Assembly (NCBI GenBank): GCA_016190245.1
Contig: JACPQY010000060.1
Location: 62,001-126,000 of the forward strand
Source of the DNA: Nitrospirota bacterium
GTDB taxonomy: Bacteria > JACPQY01
Reading direction: 5' to 3'
DNA length: 64,000 nucleotides
Positions 49,566-49,603 of this stretch are shown here, in pieces; position 1 is the stretch's first letter; each line of letters opens with the position of its first letter. A model generated the notes under the pieces. The model ran no database searches. It worked only from the letters and a program-made list of their open reading frames with translations, and was not told the DNA's origin. The translations under genes were made by a program, and so were the position numbers.

Positions 49566-49603
49566 CGGGGCGTAGCCCCGCCGGAGGCGGGGCACCTGAA
49601 TGG
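49566..49603 (+). repeat. Left partial tRNA-Pro-like copy with the D arm replaced by a GC hairpin
   Basis: CGGGGCGTAG + CCCCGCCGGAGGCGGGG + CACCTGAATGG, matching the 5' part of the tRNA except for the D arm. Confidence 0.8.

Follow-up and report, generated by a model that had tools for sequence, protein, structure and literature searches.

Several described systems share features with the locus reported here. SegB, a free-standing GIY-YIG endonuclease of phage T6, is required for the tandem amplification of a unit made up of a tRNA gene and segB (PMC13096335), and its motif is RAWTSGAAC (PMC13096335), which by our own reading matches the opposite strand of the T loop. Common to these T-even phage nucleases and the bacterial loci below are a small nuclease gene beside a tRNA gene and tandem units of tRNA and nuclease (PMC13096335); moreover, the cleavage motif there is T-loop-like, and the T loop is where many of the tRNA-derived copies here end. 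The present loci differ in being bacterial and distributed over many phyla, in encoding a protein of about 80 amino acids with no other Pfam domain, in that the arms of the copies have given way to dispersed palindromes, and in that some members are bounded by inverted repeats. The GIY-YIG insertions found in CPR rRNA genes are not group I or group II introns and occupy poorly conserved sites (PMC11270868), and most CPR rRNA insertions of any type are located at the top or base of stem-loops (PMC11270868). The loci studied here likewise lie in structured-RNA genes, outside introns and at poorly conserved sites, as do those insertions, which in rRNA fall mostly in stem-loops (PMC11270868); however, mostly tRNA and tmRNA genes are involved here, accompanied by duplicated hairpin-bearing relics, and the 23S rRNA member has an 18-bp inverted repeat and a gene-less companion.

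Short palindromes in high copy number are also typical of REP/RAYT systems and of CGTC REPs (PMC3733652), and in clade 2 of the proteins analyzed here the enzyme gene is flanked by palindromes as well. The enzyme here is nevertheless a GIY-YIG protein rather than a tyrosine (HUH) transposase, and the palindromes here stand in for tRNA arms. For CGTC REPs, a 2013 description noted that a dedicated transposase was missing (PMC3733652). Mitochondrial double-hairpin and repetitive hairpin elements are similar in being mobile-looking hairpins in rRNA genes and between tRNA genes (PMC2800124), but they are organellar, and the paper ties no enzyme gene to them and describes no replacement of tRNA arms (PMC2800124). 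Finally, Slx1, which cuts branched DNA close to the branch point (PMC6902002), and UPF0213 are among the nearest folds to the protein encoded at our locus. Clade 1, which contains that protein, is nonetheless separate from the UPF0213/YhbQ-like clade 3 in our tree, and 82 amino acids leave no room for an Slx1-type zinc finger.

An intact tRNA-Pro gene between two hairpin-bearing copies

The window, that is, the whole 64,000-nt stretch of DNA that was analyzed, contains an intact tRNA-Pro gene with anticodon GGG on the forward strand (49638-49712), detected by ARAGORN and by Rfam (RF00005, 61.6 bits). Upstream of it on the same strand, positions 49566-49603 read CGGGGCGTAG, CCCCGCCGGAGGCGGGG and CACCTGAATGG in direct succession. 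The preliminary description had taken this segment for the 5' acceptor strand and half of the anticodon stem of tRNA-Pro with a GC hairpin in place of the D arm, and the sequence is exactly so: the blocks CGGGGCGTAGC and GCACCTGAATGG correspond to tRNA-Pro positions 1-11 and 25-36, the copy ends inside the anticodon after the 5' half of the anticodon arm, and the D arm CGCAGCCTGGTAGCG is swapped for the 7-bp-stem palindrome CCCCGCCGGAGGCGGGG (49576-49592), a member of a dispersed YCCGCC-N-GGCGGR family. A second copy, nearly full length and also on the forward strand, follows at 49983-50061. Its anticodon arm is intact (25-nt exact block; E, 1.8e-10), and both its D arm and its T arm are replaced by palindromes, CCCCGCCGCCGGCGGGG at 49994-50010 and TCCCGCCGGAGGCGGGA at 50035-50051, respectively. 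The core of the latter, CCCGCCGGAGGCGGG, is common to this T-arm palindrome and the upstream copy, and this 15-mer occurs three times in the genome, twice at this locus. Between the two copies lie the intact tRNA and the gene of an 82-amino-acid GIY-YIG nuclease.

To assess the copies statistically, we scored ordered two-block matches to tRNA-Pro against 2,000 dinucleotide shuffles of each 700-bp flank. The upstream copy scored 23 (23 matching bases) and the downstream copy scored 34, versus best shuffle scores of 19 and 20 in the respective flanks, so that none of the 2,000 shuffles reached the observed value. By itself, the bare 11-mer has a chance expectation of about 1.6 occurrences; the significance rests on the ordered pair together with the hairpin. 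In the window, the gapped tRNA-Pro motif is found at 49566, 49638 and, in a shorter form, 49987 only. We thus reject chance as the source of the window copies. The truncated copy was also not observed at many positions devoid of a tRNA, since all three occurrences of CACCTGAATGG in the 3.29-Mb genome fall at this tRNA-Pro locus. The start-to-start distances of 72 and about 347 nt given previously are correct, and the intact gene is indeed bracketed by two derived copies, which differ in their hairpin loops (GGA versus GCC) and in the arms replaced.

An Rfam search of 48500-51000 for intron RNA matched the tRNA alone, which rules out a group I or group II intron. The palindromes cannot be read as terminators, since they flank the gene on either side and also occur within the tRNA copies, and an assembly artifact is ruled out by the occurrence of the same pattern in genomes of one or two contigs (e.g., G060 and G204).

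The nuclease gene (49732-49980, forward strand) begins 20 nt past the tRNA-Pro gene, apparently with a TTG start codon preceded by AGAAGGGCGAAGGG. Its assignment to the GIY-YIG superfamily in the preliminary description was confirmed by a match to PF01541 (E, 1.1e-12) and by the catalytic residues, of which Y16, R26 and E62 are invariant and Y5 is invariant or nearly so. The AlphaFold2 model (mean pLDDT, 90.7) has UPF0213, Slx1 and I-TevI as its nearest folds (E, 3e-3 to 2e-2; probability, 1.0). The GIY-YIG domain alone fills the 82 amino acids, with no separate DNA-binding region of the kind seen in SegB-type enzymes.

Relics, palindromes and inverted repeats at other loci

The same genome encodes five small GIY-YIG proteins. 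Three of the genes directly follow a tRNA gene (Leu, Pro or Arg), and in each case a tRNA-derived copy is located beyond the nuclease gene. The tRNA-Leu copy carries CCACGTTTCACGTGG in its anticodon loop and a second hairpin ahead of the T arm, and in the tRNA-Arg copy the anticodon arm is replaced by TCCCGCCAACCGGCGGGA and the 5' T strand by TCCGCCGTGGCGGA. The remaining two genes, at L009 and L010, have no tRNA but lie within perfect inverted repeats of 19 and 20 bp whose ends coincide with the start and stop codons. Copy blocks with an E value of <1e-4 were found at 2 of the 28 tRNA genes that have no GIY-YIG neighbor. One of these two is a tRNA-Lys gene (L217), which has a truncated copy with TCCGCCACGGGCGGA interrupting the D arm even though the vicinity lacks a GIY-YIG gene. 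Gene-less units within CCCCGCACCT inverted repeats occur near this tRNA-Lys (L217:1245-1400) and near a tRNA-Ile (L230:1571-1779). Elsewhere in the window, ARAGORN called a 97-nt tRNA-Arg(cct) at 21949-22045 that is missing from the Rfam tRNA-model list for the genome; another tRNA-Arg(cct) sits on contig C63, and the window call is possibly false or possibly another derived copy.

The pattern TCCGCCN2-5GGCGGA occurs at 254 sites in the 3.29-Mb genome, compared to 4 for the reversed pattern. Within the window, an inverted repeat of the type GAGATTGC...GTCATCGCGAG at 49374-49485 and its cousin at 21505-21620 each contain three inner TCCGCC-N-GGCGGA palindromes, a hairpin replacement of the same kind as in the tRNA copies. 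In a third type of dispersed repeat, TCGTCCTG followed by TCCGCCATAGGCGGA and TTGTCGAAGGA (approximately 36231-36262), a palindrome of this family likewise takes the place of the middle. Partial replacement by TCCGCC-type palindromes is therefore not special to tRNA.

Across the surveyed genomes, duplication, arm replacement and members bounded by inverted repeats were directly observed. Copy blocks are present in 39 of the 46 tRNA- or tmRNA-linked clade-1 loci, and 48 of 75 such blocks have a palindrome no more than 5 bases from an end, versus 8.8% for random positions in the same regions. In about one-third of the copy-bearing tRNA-linked loci, no palindrome was scored by the automatic test, partly owing to its strict stem rules. 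Inspection revealed replacement of the anticodon arm at L011, L012, L013 (twice), L014, L147 (three copies), L159 (twice), L166, L172, L174 (five copies, four of them in tandem), L179, L187 and L189 (twice); of the D arm in the window (twice) and at L078 and L217; and of the T arm in the window and at L034 (twice) and L156. These exact replacements are spread over many phyla. Repeated copying at a single tRNA, which had been proposed for the window, is seen outright at L174, with four tandem hairpin-bearing copies of tRNA-Glu plus a fifth, and at L147, with three copies of tRNA-Pro. Among 16 aligned upstream copies, about half stop between -2 and +6 of T54, a count that has no formal null. Two loci, L014 and L164, contain two GIY-YIG genes each with tRNA pieces between them, and at L080, where the neighbor is tmRNA, the T arm of a copy of the tmRNA 3' end is split by two palindromes. 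Two tandem GIY-YIG genes follow the tmRNA gene at L188, among AGCCTTCGCCAAGGCT-type palindromes.

Terminal inverted repeats, as in IS- or MITE-like elements, were found at L009, L010, L082 and L083; in members of this type the repeats measure 12 to 20 bp, and gene-less derivatives with the same ends were found at L082 (81 bp), L217 (111 bp) and L230 (209 bp). The 23S rRNA gene at L082 contains a GIY-YIG insertion with an 18-bp inverted repeat (1470-1768) as well as the gene-less 81-bp insertion (79-159), both with CCCCGCACCTAAAT ends. A clade-3-type GIY-YIG gene at L023:1954-2320 is enclosed by a perfect inverted repeat of 28 bp, TCCTCGTCCTGAGCCTGTCGAAGGACGA, apparently a further widespread repeat family.

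Change over time could be followed at a tRNA-Ala site shared by two genomes of one genus, G087 and G227. The site comprises a relic, the nuclease gene and the tRNA in G087 (L187) but only the relic and the tRNA, with no GIY-YIG gene, in G227 (L247), and the relic palindromes differ (GCCGATGTAGCATCGGC in L187 versus CCTGATAGCATCGGGA and TCCCGATGTGATAATCGGGA in L247). At this site, as judged from one same-genus pair, the nuclease gene comes and goes and the relic palindromes turn over; this is a presence/absence polymorphism of the SegB type, seen here rather than at the window site. The earlier expectation that copies would be absent wherever the nuclease gene is absent does not hold, given the gene-less relics at L247 and L217. 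In the only genome of the same family as that of the window (G001), tRNA-Pro is present without a GIY-YIG gene, but the neighboring genes differ and the site is not syntenic with the window. That genome has an interrupted tRNA-Pro copy (L121:1530-1615), its T loop split by about 44 bp, at 4.1 kb from the intact gene and with unrelated genes between. A same-genus comparison for L177 aligned only up to tRNA-Gln, with the gene absent and the downstream flank unjoined, and no congeners were found for an empty-site comparison with L078.

Clade-specific linkage of GIY-YIG genes to tRNA and tmRNA

The survey covered 251 mostly unrelated genomes in total. In a Pfam-based sample of 60 genomes, almost every one of which represented a separate family, a tRNA gene lay within 500 bp of 19 of the 59 small GIY-YIG loci but of none of the 35 UvrC-type loci; with ORFs re-called, 17 of 54 small loci had a tRNA within 300 bp. 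A tree of the small proteins, built from few columns and with several open forks, separated clade 1, which includes the window protein, clade 2 and the UPF0213/YhbQ-like clade 3. The tRNA-linked cluster belongs to clade 1, where 17 of 26 rows of the tree are tRNA linked. In a second genome set, in which clades were assigned by protein profile alone, blind to genomic context, a tRNA or tmRNA gene lay within 300 bp in 28 of 41 cases for clade 1, 0 of 10 for clade 2 and 1 of 15 for clade 3; the A2 search profile for this set was built largely from tRNA-linked clade-1 members and may favor such members. The adjacency of GIY-YIG genes to tRNA and tmRNA genes is thus clade specific. As with SegB, the gene resides beside its presumed target, the tRNA gene. 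Clade-1 loci with neither a tRNA nor an inverted repeat were L199, L201 and L165, with others located at contig ends. A scan of viral contigs yielded two relatives, one of them adjoining a tRNA-Pro with three hairpin copies.

Probable origin of the relics and possible enzymes of hairpin elements

We consider it probable, though by no means certain, that these structures are relics of a selfish element in which a clade-1 GIY-YIG nuclease cuts structured-RNA genes and hairpins are subsequently exchanged with dispersed palindromes. The nuclease would be the sole protein of the element, and structured-RNA genes, mostly those for tRNA, would be its home. It would cut the DNA of the tRNA gene in the T or anticodon arm or close to it, and repair of the break would duplicate a portion of the tRNA so that it flanks the nuclease gene, in the arrangement seen at these loci, with an intact tRNA remaining next to one or several dead copies. 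The arms of the dead copies would then be exchanged, hairpin for hairpin, for the dispersed palindromes of the genome, which would account for the products observed. Since the nearest solved folds include the branch-cutting nuclease Slx1, the enzyme probably attacks hairpin or cruciform DNA, whereupon repair would copy in another palindrome. Gene-less palindromes and units bounded by inverted repeats, with or without the gene, would represent one kind of element in its nonautonomous and autonomous forms. Both DNA cleavage by the enzyme and hairpin exchange during repair are steps that we infer from sequence comparison. The relic palindromes may simply be tolerated in dead DNA, and the exchange could be carried out by unrelated machinery, the genome also holding eight Y1 transposase domains.

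The presence of these Y1 domains alongside the 254 palindromes would suit a different scenario, in which a SegB-like free-standing homing endonuclease duplicates the tRNA and the palindromes are passive, unrelated REP-type sequences (e.g., RAYT driven) that land in the dead copies. Insertions are tolerated in dead DNA, and SegB does amplify the unit of tRNA and segB in tandem. We nevertheless consider this scenario rather unlikely: arms are replaced at stem boundaries instead of being simply inserted into, palindromes are found at copy-block ends 7-fold above chance, and arm replacement recurs even though the replacing palindromes vary between genomes. At the five Y1 loci that were inspected, the 100 bp next to the gene domain contained no palindrome of the family; one such palindrome lies about 130 bp away.

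The copies might instead be functional RNAs, that is, tRNA mimics with altered arms that would serve as a decoy, antidote or guide to a nuclease directed against tRNAs or their genes. The copies at L174 repeat the promoter-like region upstream of the tRNA, the nuclease gene in the window starts 20 nt past the tRNA, and strong single-strand folding was computed for the downstream window copy (z, -6.2), but the palindromes alone would be expected to give this signal. Most copies are truncated at one or the other end, the window copies have a disrupted acceptor stem, the arms differ between the two copies of one site, and the same relic carries different palindromes in L187 and L247, all of which makes a functional role very improbable. 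Genes for tRNA are classic integration sites, and an att-type partial duplication left by an integrase island could have been worn down and acquired GC palindromes by chance, as the interrupted tRNA-Pro copy in the same-family genome, 4.1 kb from the intact gene across unrelated genes, might suggest. However, no integrase was found among the ORFs around the window locus, and att duplications are 3'-end repeats, while the copies here are 5' halves or have replaced arms. Such ordinary integration and decay would also leave unexplained the clade-specific link to GIY-YIG genes and the abundance of palindromes above chance, and we give it hardly any credence.

Clade 2 shows a different association. 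Inverted palindromes of the GTCATTCCC... or GTCATTGCG... type flank the gene on both sides in 12 of 30 clade-2 loci, compared to 0 of 66 in clade 1 and 0 of 38 in clade 3, and many of them end in ...GGGAATCCA. Genes with GTCATT-tagged inverted palindromes on both sides include those at L043, L062, L067, L070, L176 and L215, among others. The tag is TGTC more often than CGTC. Judging from these motifs, the clade-2 palindromes likely belong to the same family as CGTC REPs, and the clade-2 GIY-YIG protein is a candidate for their mobilizing enzyme. Tentatively, and with considerable doubt, one might extend this to the whole class of bacterial hairpin elements, with GIY-YIG proteins as the mobilizing enzymes: one clade would swap hairpins in tRNA, tmRNA and rRNA genes, its sister clade would be the missing enzyme of CGTC REPs, and hairpin-for-hairpin exchange would be a distinct mode of DNA movement.

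In the open-access literature, we found no report linking GIY-YIG genes to palindrome-bearing tRNA copies, and our observations on clade 1 point to a barely described selfish element that parasitizes structured-RNA genes. Small GIY-YIG genes and short palindromes are both common in bacteria and have until now mostly been treated separately. A link between the two suggests a way for palindromes to spread and a reason for the broken copies that accumulate at tRNA genes and for the non-intron GIY-YIG insertions of some rRNA genes. It also offers a concrete candidate enzyme for CGTC REPs, and these ideas can be tested with a protein of 80 residues and short DNA substrates.
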